Below are positions 7,269 to 21,565 of a stretch of DNA of 41,376 nt, piece by piece. The notes beneath the pieces were generated by a model. That model worked only from the letters and a program-made list of their open reading frames with translations, was not told the origin of the DNA and ran no database searches. Every line of letters begins with the position of its first letter. Position 1 is the first letter of the stretch. The translations under genes and the position numbers were made by a program. Source of the DNA: a virus; IMG/VR virus record IMGVR_UViG_3300047409_000311, positions 1 through 41,376 of that record. One strand, 5' to 3'.

Positions 7269-8056
7269 GCCGCCTCTCCGTAATTCTGGCCGCTGGCTCC
7301 GGTGCCGCCAGGATTGGGTTGCGAGGTCGGATAGCCGCCCGTCCGTTGCGTATAGGCATTATATGCCAGGTAATTGTTCCCCGCGTTGGTCAGCGCGTTG
7401 GTGGCGTTCTGGAACCCCGCCGCCTGATTGAGGCCGGCCGCGTTGAGATACCCCGCCGCCGTGTTCGCGGCGCTCTGGCCGATCGTGCCGGTCTGCGCCG
7501 CCGCGTTCTCGCCGAGGGTCGCGACGTCCTTCAGCCGGTTGAACTGGCCGGAGAGATTGGCTTGCTGGCCGGTGTTCAAATTCAGATAATCGGTAAACCG
7601 TTGCTGTTGCACATTGAACTGGTCGAGGTAGGTTTTGTCGGCCAGGCCGGTCGCATACTCGGCGGCCCCCTTCAGCGCCGCCGACGACATCCCCAGACCC
7701 CGGCTCGCGTTGCGTGCCCGTACCGAGGCGAGGCCCTGATCTCTGGTGAACTGGTAGCCAGGGGTCGCCTCCAGTTGCGCCTGGGTCATCGTGCCCGGGA
7801 GGTTCGCGTAGGCCAGTGCGTTGAAGTCGGGGCCGCCGCCGGTCGGCCCGCCCTGGGCCACCTTGGTGAGGTCGGGCAGCACGCTCTGCCCGGTCGTGAA
7901 GAAGGGCGATAGGTCGCCGCGCGTGGTCTCGTAACGCTTCTGCACCTGATTGGCGGCTTCCCGCGCGGTGCTGGCCGCCAGATTGGCGCCGTAGATCGAA
8001 GACGCCGCGCCGGCGATGCCACTGACCGCGTTGCCGACGCCGAAAATGTCGCTCAT
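7265..8056 (-). CDS. DNA transfer/ejection protein, P22 gp7-like
   Basis: The 263-residue protein begins with a Gly/Ala-rich amphipathic segment (FGVGNAVSGIAGAASSIYGA) and an Ala-rich helix (NLAASTAREAANQVQ), typical of small phage ejection proteins. A Gln/Asn/Gly-rich region with turns (TPGYQFTRDQGLASV, SSAALKGAAEYATGLAD) and a low-complexity tail follow. This pattern is common in proteins annotated as DNA transfer protein in podoviruses. Both ends overlap neighbours by 4 bp. It likely inserts into the host envelope during DNA entry. Confidence 0.7.
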   Translation of the reverse strand: MSDIFGVGNAVSGIAGAASSIYGANLAASTAREAANQVQKRYETTRGDLSPFFTTGQSVLPDLTKVAQGGPTGGGPDFNALAYANLPGTMTQAQLEATPGYQFTRDQGLASVRARNASRGLGMSSAALKGAAEYATGLADKTYLDQFNVQQQRFTDYLNLNTGQQANLSGQFNRLKDVATLGENAAAQTGTIGQSAANTAAGYLNAAGLNQAAGFQNATNALTNAGNNYLAYNAYTQRTGGYPTSQPNPGGTGASGQNYGEAA

Positions 8057-8523
8057 GTTGGTTCACCCAGCCATTGCGCGTAGCCGATTTCAGAGACCGT
8101 GAACCCGGACAGTTCCAGCAGCCGGCCCACGCGGTGGCCGTTGCCCACGATGTCGCCACCGACCCAGCGATGCACCCCGCGCGCCCGCAACTCTCGCCGC
8201 ATCGCGCGCAACAGGCGAAAGCCGCCGAGCCTGCCGCGCGCCAGCGGGTGGACGAAGATCCCGTCGGTGGCGGCCTGTACGCAGTGCTTCGCGTGGATAT
8301 CCGGCCCGAAGAAGCAGAGGCAGTAGCCCATCAGCACGTTGCCGTCGTCGCGCAACGTGACGAGCGCCAACTCATCGTGTTTCGCCAGGGTTTCGTAGAC
8401 CTCGTAGCGTGGCGCGAGAGGGAAGCGGCCGCCGTGGGTGGACACCTCGGCCCACTGCAACGGCCAGAGCGGGGCGAGCTCGCCGACCGCGTCCATGTAG
8501 GGCTCGACCTGGGTCCGCATCAT
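8053..8523 (-). CDS. GNAT-like acetyltransferase-fold virion-module protein
   Basis: This 156-residue protein has the order of GNAT folds: beta strands (LALVTLRDD, NVLMGYCLCFFG), then DGIFVHPLARGRLGGFRLLRAMRREL, which matches the acetyl-CoA loop (V-x-P-x-x-R-x-x-G-x-G/L) and its helix, then GNGHRVGRLLELSGF. Many podoviruses carry such a protein next to their internal virion genes, where it is usually thought to be structural or modifying. Its substrate is unknown. It overlaps both neighbours by 4 bp. Confidence 0.7.
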   Translation of the reverse strand: MMRTQVEPYMDAVGELAPLWPLQWAEVSTHGGRFPLAPRYEVYETLAKHDELALVTLRDDGNVLMGYCLCFFGPDIHAKHCVQAATDGIFVHPLARGRLGGFRLLRAMRRELRARGVHRWVGGDIVGNGHRVGRLLELSGFTVSEIGYAQWLGEPT

Positions 8524-10099: not shown

Positions 10100-10747
10100 A
10101 TGTCAGCACGCAACCCTATAATCCCAGGCACCATCTTCGGTCGCCTGACCGTCATTGGCGCTGGAACTCACAGAGCAAATCCTCAGGGTGATACGGTGTA
10201 TCGTGTTGAGGTGCTGTGTGAATGCGGCGTAAAAAAGTCCATAGACGAGGTCTCCCTGAGGCAGGCCAGGACTCAATCTTGTGGCTGCCTTCAGCGGGAA
10301 ATAGTGCGGGCCGGAAAGGCCCGGTTGCGCCATGGGATGACCGCCACACGAACCCATAGAATATGGGCCGGCATGTTGTCGCGTTGCACTAATCCCAATC
10401 AGGCTACCTATATGCATTATGGTGCGCGCGGCATTCGAGTTTGCGAACGGTGGCGGACCTTTGACGCCTTCCTGGCCGACATGGGGGTCTGTCCTCCAGA
10501 CATGTCCATTGACCGCATCGACGGCAAGGGGAACTACGAACCAGGAAATTGCAGATGGGCGACCGTTGAACAACAGGGTTTCAACAACCCCCAGGTTACG
10601 CCGGTCACACTGAACGGGGAGCGCGTGAGTTTCTCGGGCGCGGCCAGACGGCTGAATGTGTCTCCTCAAACTTTGCACAAACTCAAGATAAGATGCGAGC
10701 TTACTCACCAACAAGCCGTGGACTATTACGCCGCGCGTCATTCTTGA
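10100..10747 (+). CDS. HNH endonuclease (AP2/HNH type), reversed inside the late operon
   Basis: This 215-residue protein has an N-terminal AP2-like, Cys-containing DNA-binding part (FGRLTVIG, LCECGVKK, SCGC), the segment RIWAGMLSRCTNPN..YGARGIRVCERW, and the HNH signature SIDRIDGKGNYEPGNCRWAT at about residues 135-155. A C-terminal helix-turn-helix (SGAARRLNVSPQTLHKL) follows. It is the only rightward gene in 28 kb of leftward late genes. Its 3' end overlaps the gp10-like gene by 10 bp and its 5' end lies 17 bp from the next gene. This suits a mobile homing gene in a gene junction. Confidence 0.88.
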   Translation: MSARNPIIPGTIFGRLTVIGAGTHRANPQGDTVYRVEVLCECGVKKSIDEVSLRQARTQSCGCLQREIVRAGKARLRHGMTATRTHRIWAGMLSRCTNPNQATYMHYGARGIRVCERWRTFDAFLADMGVCPPDMSIDRIDGKGNYEPGNCRWATVEQQGFNNPQVTPVTLNGERVSFSGAARRLNVSPQTLHKLKIRCELTHQQAVDYYAARHS

Positions 10748-12255
10748 CTGCCCTGGCCTTGCGGCGGCGGCTCGTCACCACGCTCGACAGTTATCCATAC
10801 CCCTTGAAGAATGGTGGGCATGGCAACAGACCATTGCAGCATGAAAACTCTGTCGCGGGCCATGCCCAAACGGTTCCACTGCAACGACGTGAGATACTCG
10901 CCGGTCTCACCAATGGACTGTGTAATGGGATTTCCAAACGTGTGCCCTCTGTCATCTGAATACGAAAGCGAAATAGTATTGGCTGGTCCAGGCATCACAC
11001 CTGGGTTGGGCGATGTCCCGGTTTCCACATCGGCGACCAGAGATCGATAAAACATGCGATCCGCGTCGGCGACGATGTGCGGGAACGAGCGCACCCGCTT
11101 GATCGGGCCGCCGTTCACATCGGTGTAGACCGTCATGTCGAGCGCGAGGACGTGCCCATTCTGCCAATCTCCGACCACCGGCACGCCCGCCACGAGAGCG
11201 TAACAATTCGCCCGGTGCCGGTGTTCGTCGCCGTTGGTATCGAGCCACACCCATTGATGCCAATGGCCGGTGGTGATGTCATAAACCCAGGTCTTGTCGA
11301 CGGTCGGGAACGCCAGGACATAGAACGCGTGGCCGGCGAGGCTGTAGCAGAAGCCGATCGCGTCCGAGATGCGCTCCTCGGCCGCCGTCGCGTAGGTCGC
11401 GATCTCCGCTTCGATGGCATAGGTCGAGATCCGTTTCGCGGAATAAAGTGATCCCATCAGTACGATACCCTGGCCGGCGCGGTTGGCGCCCAGCCAGAAG
11501 ACGGCGTTGTCATACGTTGCCGCGCTGTATTTCGCCACGCACCCGTGATCGATGATGACCTCGGACTGGGCGGTGAAGGGGAACGCGCCCGCCGTCCCGT
11601 CGCCTCCGGTGTTGGCCCATATCTCCGTCGTTTTGGCGCCCAGCAGCCAGACGTCGCGCTTGGCGACGATGAGGGTTTGTATCCGGTCGCTATGGCCGGC
11701 CTTACCGGCCAGCCAGTCCAGGGTGAAGTTGAGGTCATAAGGATTGGCCGGGTCGAACGGATCGGAAATATACCAGTAAATCGTATTCGGCTGATTGAAC
11801 ACGAAGAAGGTATCGACGTAATCAACGCGATCGCCACCATAGAATTGCGGACTGGAAATCGGCTGGTATGTCAGGAAATCGAGACCAACCGTCCAACCGT
11901 TGGCCGAGCCATCGACGATCACCGCGATGAAGCCGTTGTCGGCGATGCTGACGGGTGTCGTCAGCCCGGCCGTGATGTTGCCCAGCAACGTCGGCACCCA
12001 GGATCCCGGTTCGATCGCGTAGACGATGTGACTCTCGACCATGATGATCGCGCCGTTGGCGCACTCGTGGATCGCCCTGACCGGCCCCGTTCCCGATGAC
12101 CACAGGATGCGACTGCCGGGTGTTGGATAATGCGCCGCCGGCATCGGCTCGCCCTGCTCCTGGGGGAGGGGTTCCACGTACAGATTCACGCATCGCTGCG
12201 CCGAGGCGACCACGCTACGGGCCGTGTACGCCCCTCCGGTGAGCGCGACTTTCAT
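10738..12255 (-). CDS. Packaged-DNA stabilization/tail protein, P22 gp10-like
   Basis: The 505-residue protein matches the phage stabilisation family in its start (ARSVVASAQRCVNLYVEPLP, TPGSRIL) and in repeated short beta motifs typical of a propeller-like tail hub (GPVRAIHECANGAIIMVE, VDTFFVFNQPNTIYWYIS). P22 gp10 has 472 residues and forms the tail hub below gp4. The start at 12255 is chosen because ATG overlaps the previous stop (ATGA); the longer version at 12285 runs into the tailspike gene. Its extreme 3' end is overlapped by the reversed HNH gene. Confidence 0.85.
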   Translation of the reverse strand: MKVALTGGAYTARSVVASAQRCVNLYVEPLPQEQGEPMPAAHYPTPGSRILWSSGTGPVRAIHECANGAIIMVESHIVYAIEPGSWVPTLLGNITAGLTTPVSIADNGFIAVIVDGSANGWTVGLDFLTYQPISSPQFYGGDRVDYVDTFFVFNQPNTIYWYISDPFDPANPYDLNFTLDWLAGKAGHSDRIQTLIVAKRDVWLLGAKTTEIWANTGGDGTAGAFPFTAQSEVIIDHGCVAKYSAATYDNAVFWLGANRAGQGIVLMGSLYSAKRISTYAIEAEIATYATAAEERISDAIGFCYSLAGHAFYVLAFPTVDKTWVYDITTGHWHQWVWLDTNGDEHRHRANCYALVAGVPVVGDWQNGHVLALDMTVYTDVNGGPIKRVRSFPHIVADADRMFYRSLVADVETGTSPNPGVMPGPANTISLSYSDDRGHTFGNPITQSIGETGEYLTSLQWNRLGMARDRVFMLQWSVAMPTILQGVWITVERGDEPPPQGQGSQE

Positions 12256-13823
12256 ACGACGTTCAGCACGGTGCCGTTGCGCCACACATCGCCCGCGACA
12301 AGACCCGTGGCGCTTGTTGGGAGATTGCTCACATTCAGCGTCCGAACGGTCACCTTGCCGGTCGAGCGTTTGATGCTCAGAGGAACCAACTCAGAGGTGT
12401 CGTCCAGCACCGCATAGACTGCGAAGTCCGAACCATTACTACTCCCGCTTTCTGTATTCCCGATATTACCCATGAACCAGCGCACAGCGTGGTTTGCATT
12501 CTGCATTTGCATCATGGGGGTAATGGATAATGTCCCGGACAGGATGGAGAACAAACTGGCGCCCGCACTCGTGATAACGGTGTCTGCCTGTGTTGTTATG
12601 GTGATCGGAGGAGCACCACTGAAATTCCCCTGAAAGGAGCAACCGGCCCCGGCGATGCCACCGATGGCGCTTGTCATATATGCCGGTCCTCGGAATGTAT
12701 TGCCGCTGGCATGCACCAAAATCGTCGAGTTGATATGAATCCCGGTTCCCGGTTGGGTGGCACTTCCTATGTCAAAAACGAAATTGTTGACAATACTGAT
12801 TTCACTACCGCCTCCGGTAAAGATGCCCCAGGCTGAGTTCGTATGCTCCGCCGACACATGGTTGCCGACGATCAAAACGTCATTGGCGGCACCTATCCCG
12901 ATTTCTCCGCTTGGCTCTGGAGCGCCGGTGTTGTTATCGTAGACACGGTTGCCCGTGATTATAACGTGTTGATGAAATCCCGGCGAGGCCGTATCCACGG
13001 CGATGCCAGAGGCGAAGTTATTATATACGATATTGTTGGCCAGGATGATGTTTTTGGACGGCGTCGGTTGTCCGCCGTCGGAGTAGACGAAAATCCCCAC
13101 GGCGGCGTTTCTGACGGTGTTGCCGATGGCGCGGCTGTTGGTGATGTTACCGTAAAACGCGAAGCCAAAATCGCCAGTCGGGCCGTCAATCGTGCAGTTG
13201 GTGAGCCAGCAGTCATCACAGCTGTCAGCGAACTCGTTCGCACTGCCGCCGCCCAGCAGTTTAAGGTCGGACAGACGCGCCCCGGTTGACCGCGTGATAT
13301 TCACATTCCAATAGTGGGCGTTTTTTATCGTAATGCCGGATATTCTGAGGTTGGTGGTCTGATCGGCGGAAAAACCGGCTGAGATGCCAGACGCTCCTGA
13401 ATTACCATCGATGGTGCCGTTGCCTCGCACGATGACATTTGAACTGCTGCGTGTGTCGAGCACGCCAAGTCCGCCGATGTCCACCCCGGACTTCATCAGC
13501 AGCGTGCCGCTCAACATCAGATCGGTACCAGACGGCAGGCTGAGACTACGCACGACATAGGCGCTTCCAGCATCAGGGATGAACACCACAGCTTTGCCCG
13601 CGTAAGTGTTTAGCACCGCCTGGATGGCGGCGGTATCATCGGTGGAACCGTCACCCTTGGCGCCAAGCATCAGGACATTAACGATATTCCCGACCGCCGC
13701 GTTCAGGTCGTCGGCATAGAGGATGTCGCCGTCCTGCCACGGGTAGCCGGTGCCGGTCGTTGCCGGATCGGCCGGGATCGGGCGTACGACCGCTCGCGTG
13801 CCAAAGCGCGTCAATGCGTTCAT
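12252..13823 (-). CDS. Tailspike with right-handed beta-helix (pectate-lyase-like) domain
   Basis: Residues 1-50 hold a short anchor (YPWQDGDILYADDLNAAVGN). Then comes the start of a pectate-lyase_3 type domain (VLMLGAKGDGSTDDTAAIQAV) and a long beta-helix (about 60-400) with many GN/NN-turn rungs such as IILANNIVYNN and VIITGNRVYDNN. A small terminal beta domain follows. Proteins like this bind and often cut surface polysaccharide. The active residues cannot be assigned by eye. The same anchor occurs in the fibre at 23138-24334. It lies between the gp4-like and gp10-like genes. Confidence 0.85.
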   Translation of the reverse strand: MNALTRFGTRAVVRPIPADPATTGTGYPWQDGDILYADDLNAAVGNIVNVLMLGAKGDGSTDDTAAIQAVLNTYAGKAVVFIPDAGSAYVVRSLSLPSGTDLMLSGTLLMKSGVDIGGLGVLDTRSSSNVIVRGNGTIDGNSGASGISAGFSADQTTNLRISGITIKNAHYWNVNITRSTGARLSDLKLLGGGSANEFADSCDDCWLTNCTIDGPTGDFGFAFYGNITNSRAIGNTVRNAAVGIFVYSDGGQPTPSKNIILANNIVYNNFASGIAVDTASPGFHQHVIITGNRVYDNNTGAPEPSGEIGIGAANDVLIVGNHVSAEHTNSAWGIFTGGGSEISIVNNFVFDIGSATQPGTGIHINSTILVHASGNTFRGPAYMTSAIGGIAGAGCSFQGNFSGAPPITITTQADTVITSAGASLFSILSGTLSITPMMQMQNANHAVRWFMGNIGNTESGSSNGSDFAVYAVLDDTSELVPLSIKRSTGKVTVRTLNVSNLPTSATGLVAGDVWRNGTVLNVV

Positions 13824-13839
13824 TGGATCGTGTCTCCGG

Positions 13840-15795
13840 TTATCCCAGGACGCTGCCGCCGCCGGTCGTCCACGCCTGGTTCAACCCGCGTCCAACCCAG
13901 GACGACACGTCGCCCCGGTGGTGCGTGAGGACCGCCGGCATGCCGAGGAGGGGTATCTGGGCGTTGGTCATCTTGACCGCCTCCAGGGACGCCCTGGCCT
14001 GCCCGGCAAGCTCGCGGGATATCTGCCCGCCACTGGCCACGATGATGCGGCAGGCGAGATTGTCGATGATCGCGGCCGTGTATTCCGGCGGCATGTTCAA
14101 TGGGTCTTCCAGGCTCTCATATGCCGGCAGCGACGTCTTGGTGATCAGGTGCATTTCGTAAGCATTGGCCGGCGGCACGGGCCAGAAATGGATGCGGCCA
14201 ACGGGATAACTGCTGTCGTAGAACACCGCCGAGGGGATCGACTTCAGGTCTTTGATCGAGATATGCGCCCAGTCTTCCTTGGCCTCGATGATCGCCAGCG
14301 GAATATCCACCATGTTCGACGCGCCGGCGGTCGGTTGCTCGCCCAAGGGAAACGGCAACTGCTCGTCAAGCGTGGCCCCGTCGGTCCCAAACCCTCCGTG
14401 GCCAAGGAGGCGGACAAACGCGGCGTGGATCTTGTCTGGTCGCGCCGTGTCGAATTGCTGACGCCGGCCGATCGTGTAGGAAACATCACCAGTAGAGACC
14501 AGGGCGATTTCCTGCTCCGACCACACCAGCCACCGCTTGCGTTGCCACTGCGCCATCATGGCCATGAGCAAGGTGAACGCATCCGAAACGTCCTTCGACG
14601 CCTCCGACACGCTCTGCTGGTCGTTGATCCGGCCTGCCATACGCAACGCCAGGAACAACGCCTCGCCCACCGTCTCCGCAGCTCCACCCCACACCTTGGG
14701 CGTCTGCTGCTGGTTGATCGCCTGCACCAGTTCCAGCGCCAACGCCGCGCGATCGAGCAACTGCTTCGGCACCTCGGCGCCGAACGCATCGCGCAGCCGC
14801 ACCGCGAGGTTCAGCACGATGGCATTCCGCATGCCGGGATCGAGCGTCACCGCAGCCGACAGGTTCAGGATGAACGGAATCACACCGGGAATGACCCGCA
14901 CGGTGCGCGCCCGCCGCCACTCGTCCAGCATCTCATTCATAAGGCTGTGCGCGTCGGAAACGTCCTGCGAACCGACCGTGATGCCCTGGCCGTCATTGAC
15001 CCGGCCGGCGGCTCTGAGGGCCAGGAACAGAATGCCGTAACCGGTGCCGTCGTCATGCGCGATCGACGGTGCCGGGTTCTGCTGCAGGTTGATGGCCTGG
15101 ATAAGCGCCAGCGCGCGTTCAGCCCGGTCCAGCAACGGTTTGGGGATCTCGGCGCCGAACCAGTCCCGCAGGCGAACCGCGAGGCCGAGCACGACGGCGT
15201 TCTTCTGGCCGGCCGACAAAGACAAGGCGGCCGACAGATCGGTGACAGTCGGCAAGGTGCCTGGGATGACCTTGACCGACCGTTCCCGGTTCCACTCGTC
15301 AAGCATCTCGTTGAGGATGCTGTGGGCGTCGGTGACATCCTGGGAGGTTTCCAGCACGCCCTGTTTATCGGCCACGCGCCCGGCCGCGCGCAGTGCCAGG
15401 AAGATGACGCCAAAACCCGTCCCGTCATCGGCGGCGACGGTTGGGGGGGGCGTCTTCTGCAGATTGATCGCGCTCCACGCCGCCACTGCCGAGACGGCCA
15501 GTTGCACGTCGAGTTGGATCGGCGGCAGCGAGTAGATCTGCCGCAGCCGCACCGCCATCGTCGTCAGAAGCACATGCTCGAAAGGCGTCCAGTAAGGCAC
15601 GTCGGTCGTGAGATCGGGAAACGGCGGCACCGGCTCCCGGTTGACCTGGACCAACCGCTCCAGGTTCCACTCCGCGATCATCGCGTTGAGGACCCTGAAG
15701 CTGTCGTTGACATCATCCGGCATCGGGGTCTGGCCCACCCCATTCACACCAGAATTTCTGAGACTTAAAAAGATAATATCATTCGCTATCGTCAT
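13840..15795 (-). CDS. gp4-like head-tail adaptor with four tandem adaptor domains
   Basis: P22 gp4 is a small (about 166-residue) ring protein below the portal. Here the 651-residue protein repeats the family pattern four times with a period of 124-125 residues: IFLALRxAGR..., DVxDAxxxLNEMLDEW (Trp at about 43, 168, 292 and 417). Units 1-3 are each closed by an AVRLRxxxGA...LIQAIN segment (to about 111, 236 and 361). Unit 4 carries the full family middle region (SYTIGRRQQFDTARPDKI) and the end PPEYTAAIIDNLACRI. The position between coat and gp10 supports the role. The repeats are diverged at the DNA level, so the fusion is not recent. Confidence 0.85.
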   Translation of the reverse strand: MTIANDIIFLSLRNSGVNGVGQTPMPDDVNDSFRVLNAMIAEWNLERLVQVNREPVPPFPDLTTDVPYWTPFEHVLLTTMAVRLRQIYSLPPIQLDVQLAVSAVAAWSAINLQKTPPPTVAADDGTGFGVIFLALRAAGRVADKQGVLETSQDVTDAHSILNEMLDEWNRERSVKVIPGTLPTVTDLSAALSLSAGQKNAVVLGLAVRLRDWFGAEIPKPLLDRAERALALIQAINLQQNPAPSIAHDDGTGYGILFLALRAAGRVNDGQGITVGSQDVSDAHSLMNEMLDEWRRARTVRVIPGVIPFILNLSAAVTLDPGMRNAIVLNLAVRLRDAFGAEVPKQLLDRAALALELVQAINQQQTPKVWGGAAETVGEALFLALRMAGRINDQQSVSEASKDVSDAFTLLMAMMAQWQRKRWLVWSEQEIALVSTGDVSYTIGRRQQFDTARPDKIHAAFVRLLGHGGFGTDGATLDEQLPFPLGEQPTAGASNMVDIPLAIIEAKEDWAHISIKDLKSIPSAVFYDSSYPVGRIHFWPVPPANAYEMHLITKTSLPAYESLEDPLNMPPEYTAAIIDNLACRIIVASGGQISRELAGQARASLEAVKMTNAQIPLLGMPAVLTHHRGDVSSWVGRGLNQAWTTGGGSVLG

Positions 15796-15801
15796 GTTAC
15801 A

Positions 15802-15915
15802 TCACCAACGCCAGAGAGTGGCGAACAGCATGAGAGCCACCACGATGTTGATCACCGCCATCACGGCGTTGGCTACCCACGCCCATCCAATCAGGCTGAC
15901 AGGATGGAGAACCAC
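15802..15915 (-). CDS. Candidate small single-pass membrane protein (37 aa)
   Basis: A GTG-started frame begins inside the end of the preceding gene and stops 6 bp before the gp4-like start. The product is mostly one hydrophobic helix (VANAVMAVINIVVALMLFATLW) with Trp/Arg at its end. Close packing and the membrane pattern support it, but there is no clear ribosome site. It could be a holin-like or chance frame. Confidence 0.35.
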   Translation of the reverse strand: MVLHPVSLIGWAWVANAVMAVINIVVALMLFATLWRW

Positions 15916-16250
15916 AACCCGACGTCCGGGGAGACGAACTGGGCTTTACCGGCCGCCGCCAGCGATATCCCCGTCGCCGCCGCCACGTTGTTGATCAGGT
16001 CATTTGTGCCAGGCGCCGCGAACACCTGGGTGGCCGCCGCGCCACTGTTGATGACAGTCACCTCCTGACCGCCGGTGGCGGGCGGCAGGGCGACGCTGTC
16101 GGCGGCGGTGGCGCAGACGCTGATCCGGTTGAACGCCGCCAGGAGCGGCACGGCGGCGGCCCGCGTGCCTCCCGCGCGCGCCGTGATGTTGTTCTGAAAC
16201 GACGCGATGCCGGTCGGGTCGTAGAGTTGCGGGCCGGGGGTGTATGCCAT
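15891..16250 (-). CDS. Small virion-module protein (119 aa), possible capsid decoration
   Basis: The motif AFNRISVCATAADSVALPPA followed by VTVINSGAAATQVFAAPG and ATGISLAAAGKAQF recurs in small proteins next to phage head genes, usually without assigned function. The sequence is beta-rich and Gly/Ala-rich with no catalytic motif. Its place directly after the coat gene suggests a head decoration or fibre protein; this is inference only. Confidence 0.7.
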   Translation of the reverse strand: MAYTPGPQLYDPTGIASFQNNITARAGGTRAAAVPLLAAFNRISVCATAADSVALPPATGGQEVTVINSGAAATQVFAAPGTNDLINNVAAATGISLAAAGKAQFVSPDVGLWFSILSA

Positions 16251-16303: not shown

Positions 16304-17509
16304 CTAATTCGCTGCGAGGCGCACCGCGAGTTGAGGCCGGAGTGCAACCGCTCCCCACAAGACATCCAGGCGGATCGGCATGGTGTCGTCTGAAATACTA
16401 TACTGACGTACCGCTCTCATACTAATTCCATCTTTTACGACACGCGAAGCCATGTCCACACCTCCGGGCATGACAAGATCGGCAGTGGCGAAGGTAAAAG
16501 CGTCGGGTGAATATGCGAGGCTCAACCCGGTCGCCGCGCTCGCCGTCCCCATGAACGAAATCGCCGCAGTCGCGTTGGCCACGGGGATGGCGACGTTCTG
16601 CTGCGGGCTGCCGACCACGGCGTTGATGGCCGGCGCGATGGCCATGTTGCCGCCGCCGCCCGCGTAGGCCCCGGTCAGCACGAACTGCTGAAGCACACCC
16701 GAATTGACCTTGGTTTCCGGGTGGACCCTGTACACGCCCGCGATTGTGAACACGTCGCCCGCGTTGCCCGCGCCGGCTCCGGTGATCACGGCGAGGGTGG
16801 CGCCAGTGGCCTGATTAAGCACGATCGCCGTCGTGTAAGCCGCGTTCTCGGCGCCGCGCGTTTGCGTGGTCAGGTGGGTGTTCTCGGCCCACTCGAAGCC
16901 GCCCGCGAGGCCCATCACGCCGTCAGTATACTGGCGGGCGATCTGCGTGCTCTGCTGGAACAGGCCCTTGAGGCTGTCCACCAGATCCACGTTGTCCTGC
17001 GTGTTGATGCGAAGCTGCCACTGCTTGCTTTGCGGCGTCAGGTTGTCGAGCAGCATCTTGCGGGCGACGAGGACGTTCTTGAACGACTGCGCGACGCCCG
17101 GCGTGCCGACCTGGTTCCACACCGTCGGCCACATCATGCCGATGACCGCCGCCTCGATCTGGGCGGCCAACACGGCAATGGCGGGTTCAATGTATCGCGC
17201 CGTGAAGTCATCGATAGAGAGCGTAAGTTCGGCGCTGCTGAACGAGAAATCGACGTGATACTGATTGGTGATCGGTAGGCTGATCTGTGTCTCAACCGTG
17301 TTCTGCAACGACAGCGCGGGCGTCGTGCTGACGGTGTATTGCACCGGCAGGCGGATGCGGAGCGTGCTGCCGATCTTGGCGCCGCTCTGCGCGAAACTAT
17401 CGTCGTATTGCCTGTTGATGCTGCCGATGAAGTTGCATTTCTGGTGCAGTATCGCGAGCGCCTTGGCCGTGATCATGTTGATGGTGAGGAGTGTATTGGT
17501 GGCGGGCAT
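16304..17509 (-). CDS. Major capsid protein, P22 coat (gp5)-like
   Basis: The 401-residue protein fits the P22 coat family (gp5 has 430 residues): early helix KALAILHQKCNFIGSINRQYDDSF, then GSTLRIRLPVQYTVS, a central Ig-like insertion region with GDVFTIAGVYRVHPETK, and an end with GGVDMASRVVKDGISMRAVRQYSI..DTMPIRLDVLWG. It follows the scaffold gene, as in P22. A good ribosome site (AAAGGG, 8 bp) precedes the ATG. The 201-bp leader in front contains a duplicated 32-bp element. Confidence 0.92.
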   Translation of the reverse strand: MPATNTLLTINMITAKALAILHQKCNFIGSINRQYDDSFAQSGAKIGSTLRIRLPVQYTVSTTPALSLQNTVETQISLPITNQYHVDFSFSSAELTLSIDDFTARYIEPAIAVLAAQIEAAVIGMMWPTVWNQVGTPGVAQSFKNVLVARKMLLDNLTPQSKQWQLRINTQDNVDLVDSLKGLFQQSTQIARQYTDGVMGLAGGFEWAENTHLTTQTRGAENAAYTTAIVLNQATGATLAVITGAGAGNAGDVFTIAGVYRVHPETKVNSGVLQQFVLTGAYAGGGGNMAIAPAINAVVGSPQQNVAIPVANATAAISFMGTASAATGLSLAYSPDAFTFATADLVMPGGVDMASRVVKDGISMRAVRQYSISDDTMPIRLDVLWGAVALRPQLAVRLAAN

Positions 17510-17710: not shown

Positions 17711-18481
17711 TTAGCGGCGAGTCTGTTTTTCGAGGTTCTGGCGCATGTAGAAATCGGCCAACTGCTGCGCCGTCGCCGTATATTCGTTGAACTGTGGACT
17801 GGCCCTGCCCGTCACCGGACGCACCGGGGCCGGCGCCCTGGTCATGGCAGGCGCGGCGGCGGCTCCGTTAACGCCGTTCGGCCGGGATCGATCGTGTGTC
17901 GCCTCCTCGATCGTCGCGGCGAACTTACCCAATGCGACGGCTCGCCCCCGCTCAGTCCGGAGGCTGGAGATACGCTGCAATGCCTCTGGATCATCGGCCA
18001 GCGCACCGGCCACCTTCACGCCCTCGGAGACCGGCATGTCGAGGAGCAGTTGCGCGATATTCGGATCGGCGCCCATGTCGATGAGGCGTTGGGTGCGTTC
18101 CGGCCAATCGGAGTATTGCGACTGGCCAAGGGAATGGAAGTTGGTCTGTTTGATTTCGGCCTCGACCTCGGCGCGGACCTCCATTCGGAGCCGTTGCGCG
18201 GCCTGCTCCGGCGTGTCGTCCTGAGGCGAGTGGCCCGCCAGTTGGCGGCGCATGAAATCGTTTTCAGCGCGGAGGGCCGCGAGGTCACGTTCCCTGGCAC
18301 TCGATCTGGCGCTGAGTTCAGCGAACCGCCGGTCGCGTTTGCTTTGCCGCTCCTCGCCGTCATCCTGCTCCTCCGAGGCGTCAGTCTCCGGTGTGGACTC
18401 TGGCGGCGGGGGATCGGGAACGGCGGGTTGCGGCGCGCCTCCGGGATCGGGAATGACCGGGTCGGTGTTGGTTTCGCTCAT
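17711..18481 (-). CDS. Scaffolding protein
   Basis: The 256-residue protein is highly charged and helical: a Pro/Glu/Asp-rich disordered N-terminus (about 1-50), a coiled-coil-like middle (LAALRAENDFMRRQLAG), and a C-terminal helix with basic residues (QLADFYMRQNLEKQTRR) of the kind P22 scaffold uses to contact coat. It sits just before the coat gene. P22 gp8 has 303 residues. No protease domain is present. Confidence 0.8.
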   Translation of the reverse strand: MSETNTDPVIPDPGGAPQPAVPDPPPPESTPETDASEEQDDGEERQSKRDRRFAELSARSSARERDLAALRAENDFMRRQLAGHSPQDDTPEQAAQRLRMEVRAEVEAEIKQTNFHSLGQSQYSDWPERTQRLIDMGADPNIAQLLLDMPVSEGVKVAGALADDPEALQRISSLRTERGRAVALGKFAATIEEATHDRSRPNGVNGAAAAPAMTRAPAPVRPVTGRASPQFNEYTATAQQLADFYMRQNLEKQTRR

Positions 18482-19136: not shown

Positions 19137-19355
19137 TTAGGTTGTTGCTGTTGGGCGACCGAGGATCGCATCGATGATCCGCTCGACGTCGATCAACAGA
19201 TCGACATCCGTGGCACCACGCCCAGAAATGACGATCGCGTCCCCCACCATTTCAGCGCGCTCGCCCAGTTGGTTGAGGATTTCAGCGGTGATCGCGTCGT
19301 TGAGTTCATCTCGACGGGTCGCCTCAAGCGCCGGATCGTCCCAGGTTCGTGTCAC
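19137..19355 (-). CDS. Hypothetical small protein after the portal gene (72 aa)
   Basis: The start overlaps the portal stop (ATGA). The sequence is a helix (RRDELNDAITAEILNQLGERAEMV), a short beta part (GDAIVISGRG) and a second helix (DVDLLIDVERIIDAIL). The function is unknown; the coupling supports it as a real gene. Confidence 0.65.
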   Translation of the reverse strand: MTRTWDDPALEATRRDELNDAITAEILNQLGERAEMVGDAIVISGRGATDVDLLIDVERIIDAILGRPTATT

Positions 19356-21565
19356 GCCCCGCCCCCCGGAGCCGGTCCAGGCGGCGCCTGACCGTTCGCC
19401 CCGTTCACGGGCACGGGTGGCGCCAGCGTGGTCTGTAGCTCGCTCTCGTCCGCCGCGTGCTGCTGGAGGAGCGGGTGGATCTCGGTGCCCAGCATATCAG
19501 CTACCATTTGCCGCACGATCGCCTGGAGGCTGAGCGGATCTATCGCGCCAACCGCCTTCAATCGATCCGTCTCCGCCTGATAGTCCTTGATCTCGATCTC
19601 CGCGCTCTTGTCCTTGGCCTGCTCCTGAGCATGCACCAACTGGGCCTTTAGCGATGCGATCTCCGCGTCTGCCTTCTGCAACATCCCTTGCGCCTGCTGC
19701 TGCATCTGCTGAGCCTGCTGCGTGACGGCCATCACCTGCGGGTCCGGTCCCGCCTTGTAGTTCGGCGGCAGGCCACGTTTCAACCGCTCCGCCAACTCAT
19801 CAGCGCCGGGGAAATCCGAGTTCGCGGCCCAGAAATCGCCGACGATCTGGAACGCCGCCGGGTTTTGTTGCATGATCTGGCTGAACGCGTTGGCCGCCTC
19901 CTGCCTTTGCGTGCCGTAACTCGGCCCGACATCGGCCTCTACGTCATAAGTCCCGACATTTGGATTGAAAATGATCGCCGGATCGGGCTGCGCGGGATCT
20001 TCCTGCTGTTTTTGGGCCTCGGCGGGCGAAATCGGCCCCGGAGGCGCGCCGTTCGGCTGCTGACCGATGTATTGATGCGCGTCGGGCATGTCAGGCGCGA
20101 TCATCGCCTTGTTTTCGGTGCCATCCTCCGCCAGCGTCATCACAACGCGCCGCGTGTCGTATATTTTTGGTATCAGATCGAGCAGGATGCGACCGATTTG
20201 CCGAATACCCTTGGCCTGATTGTCGATGTAGTGGTACGTCGCCGTATCACCTTGCCGCTGCCGCTGCTGAATGGCGATTCCCGACCGTTCGTTGCTCGGC
20301 ATACCCAGTTCGGCCTGATACTGGCCGGTCACGCTCATCAGATCTTGCCGCGCGATGGTCATGCCCTGGATGTAAGCCTGGGCCATGGTCGGCGGCTCGA
20401 CCCGCGACGGCGCCGCGATCGTATTTCCCGCCTCGTCGATGCCGTTATAGACCAACACCGACCAGTTCTTGACGTTCGCCGTCGCCCACTGCTCCGTCCG
20501 GCCCTCGATCGCGTCGGCACGCGCCACATAGGGCGTCTTGGTCTGCAACGCGACCTGTTCGACGGCGGCACTGGCCCAATAATTGTAGATCCTCTGTGCA
20601 TCGATCTGGGCGCGCGTGTGGCCCTTGCGGTCCATCTCGCCCTCGATGACCGTCTCCTCGCCAATGAACGGCACGATCGGGATGTACTTGCCCAGCCATT
20701 GCTCACGATCGATGATCTTGTCGCCGGCCAGCTTGAACCACTCGATCTCCGGCTCCGCCACATCGCGGCTCTGGACGATCAACGCCTTCACCTGATCGCG
20801 AAACTCCGCCGGTATCTCGCTGTCACGCACCACGGTCCCATCCTGGAGCCGGTGCAACGTCTCGTTATTGAGGTTGCGCCGCCAGTATTCCGCGATCCTC
20901 ACGTGATCCTTGTCGTTCCACCCATCGCTGTGCTCCAACGTGGCCGGCGCCGGGTTATCCTCCTCGCCATATTCCTCCTCGTAACGATCGCGTGGGATGT
21001 CCTCGAACACGAACGCGAAACCGGCGTCCGATTTGTCGTACATCTTGGCGTCCGGGTCCATGTAGACCGAACGCGGATCGGGCACGCGACGGATGAACAG
21101 GTCGAGGTCGAAGCTGTTCTCGTCCACGTAATCAGTCTCGACGCGGACATACCCGATGCCGCTCTCGACCTGATGGTATGTCGCCGTGCTGTAAGCATCG
21201 ACGGCCTTGCTGACATATTCAATGCGCCGGATGATGCCGCTGAACACCTGGGCCGCCTCGTAGCTGGCGTGGCCGCCGACAGGAGTGACCTTGATCTGGG
21301 CTTTGTTCTGCCTTGCATCGTTCACGATCTGGAGCACATGCTGGCGCGTCTGATTGTATGTCAGGGTCGGGCGGTCACCTCGATCCGTCATGGTTCCGTT
21401 ATTATTACACCATTGCCACCCATTATGGACGTCTCCATTATTGAACCTGGTATCAAAAAGCGCTCTTTGTCGCCATGTGGACTCCCAGGCTACGCACCTC
21501 TCGAACCTTTCCTTCGCGGTTTTAAGGATTTCCTCATCGTCGTCTTTTGGACGCCGAGCCATCAT
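19352..21565 (-). CDS. Portal protein, P22 gp1-like
   Basis: At 737 residues it is close to P22 gp1 (725). Recognisable family stretches are NNGDVHNGWQW, RPTLTYNQTRQHVLQIVNDARQN, VESGIGYVRVETDY, VPDPRSVYMDPDA and GMPSNERSGIAIQQRQRQGD. The C-terminal third (about 600-690) is a Gln-rich coiled coil (VTQQAQQMQQQAQGMLQKADAEIASLKAQL), like the portal barrel. It forms the dodecameric DNA gate at one capsid vertex. An HNH gene sits only 6 bp upstream. Confidence 0.92.
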   Translation of the reverse strand: MMARRPKDDDEEILKTAKERFERCVAWESTWRQRALFDTRFNNGDVHNGWQWCNNNGTMTDRGDRPTLTYNQTRQHVLQIVNDARQNKAQIKVTPVGGHASYEAAQVFSGIIRRIEYVSKAVDAYSTATYHQVESGIGYVRVETDYVDENSFDLDLFIRRVPDPRSVYMDPDAKMYDKSDAGFAFVFEDIPRDRYEEEYGEEDNPAPATLEHSDGWNDKDHVRIAEYWRRNLNNETLHRLQDGTVVRDSEIPAEFRDQVKALIVQSRDVAEPEIEWFKLAGDKIIDREQWLGKYIPIVPFIGEETVIEGEMDRKGHTRAQIDAQRIYNYWASAAVEQVALQTKTPYVARADAIEGRTEQWATANVKNWSVLVYNGIDEAGNTIAAPSRVEPPTMAQAYIQGMTIARQDLMSVTGQYQAELGMPSNERSGIAIQQRQRQGDTATYHYIDNQAKGIRQIGRILLDLIPKIYDTRRVVMTLAEDGTENKAMIAPDMPDAHQYIGQQPNGAPPGPISPAEAQKQQEDPAQPDPAIIFNPNVGTYDVEADVGPSYGTQRQEAANAFSQIMQQNPAAFQIVGDFWAANSDFPGADELAERLKRGLPPNYKAGPDPQVMAVTQQAQQMQQQAQGMLQKADAEIASLKAQLVHAQEQAKDKSAEIEIKDYQAETDRLKAVGAIDPLSLQAIVRQMVADMLGTEIHPLLQQHAADESELQTTLAPPVPVNGANGQAPPGPAPGGGA

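Follow-up and report, generated by a model that had tools for sequence, protein, structure and literature searches.

Four tandem units in a P22 gp4-type head-tail adaptor and one to five units in its relatives

Genomic Context of the Adaptor Gene

The window, i.e., the whole stretch of DNA analyzed here, comprises 41,376 bases and represents a complete virus record. Its minus strand carries a P22-like structural module with genes for portal, scaffold, coat, a protein of 119 amino acids, adaptor, spike and a gp10-like nozzle protein. The P22-like portal protein (positions 19352–21565, minus strand) matches Pfam PF16510 with an E value of 1e-161, the scaffolding protein (17711–18481, minus strand) PHROG 8865 and the P22-like coat protein (16304–17509, minus strand) Pfam PF11651. 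The small protein between coat and adaptor (15891–16250, minus strand) is without a family match and is conserved in most relatives. The adaptor gene (13840–15795, minus strand) starts with ATG and encodes 651 amino acids organized in four units. It is neighbored by the gene for a tail spike/fiber protein of the beta-helix type (12252–13823, minus strand), a candidate ligand of the adaptor’s putative dock domain, which is followed by the gp10-like nozzle protein, head closure Hc3 (10738–12285, minus strand; PHROG 578, E value 4e-88; Pfam PF11134). The adaptor is thus encoded together with a P22-like portal, scaffold, coat and gp10. An acetyltransferase-like gene (PHROG 1249; 8053–8523, minus strand) lies within the cluster of tail and ejection proteins. 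Opposite to the adaptor gene, an antisense open frame of 672 amino acids is present (13750–15768, plus strand), which is probably a by-product of G+C-rich coding and no gene.

Four Tandem Units in One Adaptor Chain

This protein belongs to a P22-like podovirus and combines four tandem units in a head-tail adaptor of the P22 gp4 type. The initial annotation had proposed four fused gp4-like units from the repeated family pattern, and this was borne out: PHROG 637, “head-tail adaptor Ad3”, aligns to four stretches of the protein (E value 1.2e-21), the gene contains DNA repeats at 375-nucleotide steps, and the units start at residues 1, 124, 249, and 373, i.e., in steps of 123, 125, and 124 residues. 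The Pfam family P22_Tail-4 scored 21.5 bits, barely above its cutoff of 21, and the sequence search against the PDB returned a single weak and irrelevant match. A repeat profile detected three whole units and a split fourth one; as this profile was made from the same adaptor family, it served to set boundaries and is not independent evidence. Unit spacing is 120–125 residues with predicted linkers of 12–13 residues between the units.

Between units 2 and 3, amino acid identity is 64% and identity at third codon positions is 44%, and between orthologous units dN/dS ranges from 0.02 to 0.30 for all four units. The repeats are therefore neither due to chance nor to decay, and the substitution pattern indicates purifying selection on each of the four units. 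These values also bear on the idea that the extra units act as adaptor-fold decoys or assembly chaperones, which are for example folded away or cleaved and do not form rings in the virion. The T7 adaptor is monomeric before docking (PMC6702177), which would be in line with such a role and is nothing direct; the low dN/dS in every unit and the specific loop signatures of unit 1 described below argue for a role in contacts, making the decoy or chaperone reading quite improbable.

Predicted Fold of the Units

The AlphaFold2 (AF2) model of the full-length adaptor is of modest quality (pLDDT 62.4, pTM 0.30). It shows four helices in each of the short units, i.e., unit 1 (residues 1–123; 15427–15795, minus strand), unit 2 (residues 124–248; 15052–15426, minus strand) and unit 3 (residues 249–372; 14680–15051, minus strand), of which units 2 and 3 are the internal ones. 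Unit 4 (residues 373–651; 13843–14679, minus strand) consists of two helices, a beta region and two further helices, so that it corresponds to an entire adaptor including a putative dock domain and the C-terminal tail. Units 2 and 3 modeled alone reached a pLDDT of 72.9 and a pTM of 0.48, and in both models the arrangement of the units relative to each other is predicted without confidence.

The model of units 2 and 3 superimposes on P22 gp4 (8eao_A) with a Z score of 15.1 and an rmsd of 2.3 Å over 113 residues; the top 21 rows of the structure matches are all phage adaptor chains and the next row drops to a Z score of 5.0. For the core of unit 4, the comparison with P22 gp4 gave a Z score of 16.0 (2.1 Å, 115 residues), and for unit 1 that with the Pan3 adaptor gave a Z score of 13.3. 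According to these models, the four-helix up-down bundle core of a P22 gp4-type adaptor is present in the units. The initial annotation would have been contradicted by units 1–3 folding differently from gp4, and this is not what the models show.

The beta region of unit 4 (residues 426–554; 14134–14520, minus strand) is placed between helices α2 and α3, with strands predicted at low confidence, and Pfam SU10_adaptor scored 19.1 bits on the protein, under its cutoff of 27. The adaptors of T7 and SU10 carry a beta domain known as the tail-fiber dock, whereas those of P22 and Sf6 are without it (PMC9509320). The beta domain of unit 4 is, in the model, positioned like the fiber-dock domain of T7/SU10-type adaptors. 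It was correctly noted earlier that only the fourth unit has the complete middle domain; P22 gp4 itself lacks this domain, so that units 1–3 have the P22 gp4 layout and are not truncated. The C-terminal tail (residues 613–651; 13843–13959, minus strand), a candidate portal-embracing arm, is likewise absent from units 1–3 and has low pLDDT.

Copy Number of Adaptor Units in Related Phages

Relatives were gathered by IMG/VR scans, and the survey for tandem units proposed in the initial annotation revealed adaptors with one, two, three, four or five units. Phages with one to five units share the same gene order and have coat proteins 73–97% identical to that of the window. Several two-unit phages reach 95–97% coat identity, and the single-unit sister phages among L070–L089 have portals 70–82% identical to the window’s, the same gene order, and coats 73–85% identical (L070–L087 and L089). 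A gp10 nozzle homolog is retained in all of these phages, with 37–66% identity to the window’s in two-unit relatives and at least 53% in relatives with three to five units. In all multi-unit members with a complete gene, a first unit without dock is followed by zero to three short internal units, and dock and C-terminal tail are found in the last unit. At least 11 changes in unit number are seen on the tree of final units, and the three five-unit members each represent a separate change. In one relative (L007, 1385–3322), the third unit duplicates the last one, minus the dock; judged from its sequence, this can be regarded as an intermediate showing a possible origin of the short units.

A further lineage, with coats 62–65% identical, contains four units (L130, 2137–4485) and three units (L131, 2491–4329), and the dock region of its last unit is enlarged. 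Moreover, in L137 (2126–4020) and also in L138, L139, and L143, two adjacent adaptor genes are located between coat and gp10; in L137, a single-unit gene (reading frame of 268 amino acids) is followed by a two-unit gene (376 amino acids). An assembly artifact as the source of the copy numbers was judged unlikely, the repeats of L003 differing by 24% in DNA and the four- and five-unit forms being found in separate contigs.

Outside IMG/VR, a scan of the genome collection with the full alignment (A1) gave 88 pattern matches, none of which was confirmed, and a scan of the same collection with the last-unit alignment gave 11 prophage-like loci, all single-unit and one split by stops. In Rhodanobacter glycinis, the adaptor of a prophage-like locus (L106, 8070–8705) is interrupted by in-frame stops. 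The internal-unit alignment had no match in 398 genomes, a result that is uninformative as the search was run without a positive control. Isolate records yielded no multi-unit member. In the literature searched there was no earlier report of fused or tandem adaptors, which does not prove their absence.

The copy number is relevant for the arrangement suggested in the initial annotation, in which three four-unit chains fill one 12-fold ring. The product of four units and three chains is 12, the units have the adaptor fold in common, and a linker of 12–13 residues could reach a neighboring position. However, five-unit relatives arose three times and 12 is not divisible by five. Moreover, the units are not interchangeable, as the loop signatures described below differ between first and last unit, and dock and C-terminal tail would be missing at 9 of 12 positions, whereas the single-unit sisters, with their similar portals, have both in every subunit. 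The in-plane trimer of four-unit chains was discarded because of copy number and unit specialization, and a single ring of this kind is regarded as very improbable.

Specialization of the First and the Last Unit

For the T7 adaptor it was shown that the α1–α2 loop binds the nozzle and that the C-terminal helix embraces the portal (PMC6702177). In unit 1 of the window’s adaptor, both nozzle-side loops bear the signatures of single-unit adaptors, namely the α1–α2 loop GVNGVGQTPMP (residues 16–26; 15718–15750, minus strand), the T7 gp11 counterpart of which touches the nozzle, and the α3–α4 loop YSLPP (residues 88–92; 15520–15534, minus strand), which is common to single-unit relatives. Across the family, the motif G.GQ in the α1–α2 loop is present in 22/27 single-unit adaptors and in 32/32 first units and is found in 0/29 internal and 0/32 last units. 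The same distribution applies to Y.[LMV]P in the α3–α4 loop (21/27 single-unit adaptors, 30/32 first, 0/29 internal, and 0/32 last units). The motif W.R.R[WY] at the end of α2 in front of the dock shows the opposite pattern, as all 27 single-unit adaptors and all 32 last units carry it and none of the 32 first or 29 internal units does. An alternative α1–α2 loop, GR..D.Q, occurs in 29/29 internal and 32/32 last units, as would be expected if both rest on another ring.

Half-unit profiles agree with this split of motifs between first and last unit. On the single-unit model, the N-terminal half of unit 1 reaches 50.9 bits, compared to 21.1 on the internal and 13.5 on the last-unit model; the C-terminal half of the last unit reaches 60.5 bits on the single-unit model, compared to 1.1 on the unit 1 model and 19.3 on the internal model. 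The sequences thus suggest that unit 1 alone holds the single-unit signature in its nozzle-facing loops and that the last unit alone holds it in the portal-facing dock flank and C-terminal end. The rows counted are related phages rather than independent events, and the selection of motifs was made by eye after alignment, with no chance baseline, so that the split is strong pattern evidence and no formal test. The placement of the α3–α4 loop and of the dock side is based on the general up-down bundle topology and not on coordinates of this protein. Averages of regional similarity gave unstable ratios in several regions, and motif counts and profile scores were relied on instead; the counts for P.EY and N.Q were set aside as unit 1 matched these motifs by chance too. 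The later added L137–L139 and L130–L131 are excluded from the counts. In L137, G.GQ is absent from the first unit of the two-unit gene and present in the separate single-unit gene. In part, the split of signatures could stem from how unit 1 originated and not from its function.

A copy number of one to five and signatures divided between the first and the last unit are easier to reconcile with stacked rings than with a single ring whose positions are equivalent. The main rival to stacking is that 12 chains form a ring from their last units only and that the N-terminal units hang outward as a collar of arms, which reinforces the neck or holds extra spikes. That dock and tail are confined to the last unit, that AF2 predicts the packing between units without confidence and that the neighboring gene encodes a spike would all agree with such arms. 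However, unit spacing is nearly invariant, and the nozzle-loop signature is gone from the last unit of multi-unit proteins and kept in the first units (G.GQ in all 32) although these phages retain a homologous gp10. Outer arms are therefore considered rather unlikely.

Covalently Linked Stacked Rings as a Proposed Model for the Neck

The repeats, the fold, the variation in copy number and the signature split were computed; from these we infer the number of chains, their stacking and polarity and the neck length. The favored reading, held with a reasonable degree of confidence, is that 12 chains form a covalently linked stack of rings, in which unit 1 faces the nozzle and the last unit faces the portal, and that the copy number sets the length of the neck. 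By analogy with P22, T7, and SU10, each portal subunit would be paired with one copy, giving 12 in total. The last unit, as sole bearer of dock domain and C-terminal tail, would sit on the portal clip as a ring and hold the spikes; being present in all members, it most simply accounts for the ring that the portals have in common. Every upstream unit would, as a P22 gp4-like four-helix bundle, add a further ring beneath, so that four units would give four linked rings with 48 domains. Unit 1 would form the final ring, retaining the loops that bind the gp10 nozzle. The predicted linkers, the regular unit spacing and the two adjacent adaptor genes of L137–L139 also speak in favor of stacking. The up-down topology of the bundle would place both chain ends on the portal-facing side, and a short α1 together with the predicted linkers could span from ring to ring; a neighbor in the same ring might be reached equally well. 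An argument against stacking is that assembly of the T7 adaptor is confined to the portal; internal rings would therefore need another template.

By tandem duplication, units would be gained and lost, and the copy number, observed from one to five, would determine the length of the neck barrel, each ring contributing approximately 4–5 nm by analogy with crAss001. The wider proposal, slightly favored and held a little less firmly than the ring arrangement itself, is that domain duplication sets a covalent stack of one to five rings, making neck length genetically readable and fast-evolving, and that the roles at nozzle and portal are split between first and last unit.

The closest solved analog is the tail barrel of crAss001, in which five stacked dodecameric rings are formed by paralogous adaptor-fold proteins from separate genes, with an overall length of approximately 23 nm; according to the same study, other podoviruses were seen with one adaptor ring only (PMC10172136). 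In crAss001, several adaptor-fold paralogs (R1–R4) occur per virion (PMC10172136); here, four adaptor-fold units are encoded in one gene, and L137–L139 encode two adjacent adaptors. In contrast to the separate ring genes with beta-sandwich domains in crAss001, the units described here are fused helix bundles of variable copy number in a P22-like phage. P22 gp4 and Sf6 gp7 (Ad3, Pfam P22_Tail-4) share with the window’s adaptor the four-helix core (Z score 15–16 to P22 gp4), the coat/gp10 gene order and the P22-like portal; however, P22 gp4 has one unit without dock, whereas the window’s adaptor has four units per chain with a dock-type domain in the last. T7 gp11 and SU10 gp11 resemble unit 4 in their helix bundle, in the C-terminal extension and in the beta domain between α2 and α3, which for unit 4 is predicted at low confidence, but they are single-unit proteins of which 12 copies form one ring. 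The single-unit sisters L070–L089 and the PAE2 tail accessory factor have a homologous adaptor with the same neighbors and differ in having one unit that combines nozzle-side and portal-side signatures.

If stacking holds, the neck is lengthened by domain repeats inside one gene, and these phages represent a natural series with ring numbers from one to five on similar heads, in which the control of neck length in podophages becomes testable by comparison of relatives. Furthermore, the portal-binding and nozzle-binding surfaces of the adaptor would be separated, which single-unit adaptors bear together. The relatives with one to five copies suggest an evolvable neck length and stacked rings, not a single ring of three four-domain chains.

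The spikes of these phages share an N-terminal stretch, approximately residues 24–46 in the window’s spike (TTGTGYPWQDGDILYADDLN), which is common to spikes encoded after single-unit and multi-unit adaptors. As the remainder of the spike differs between relatives, this stretch is probably the virion anchor.
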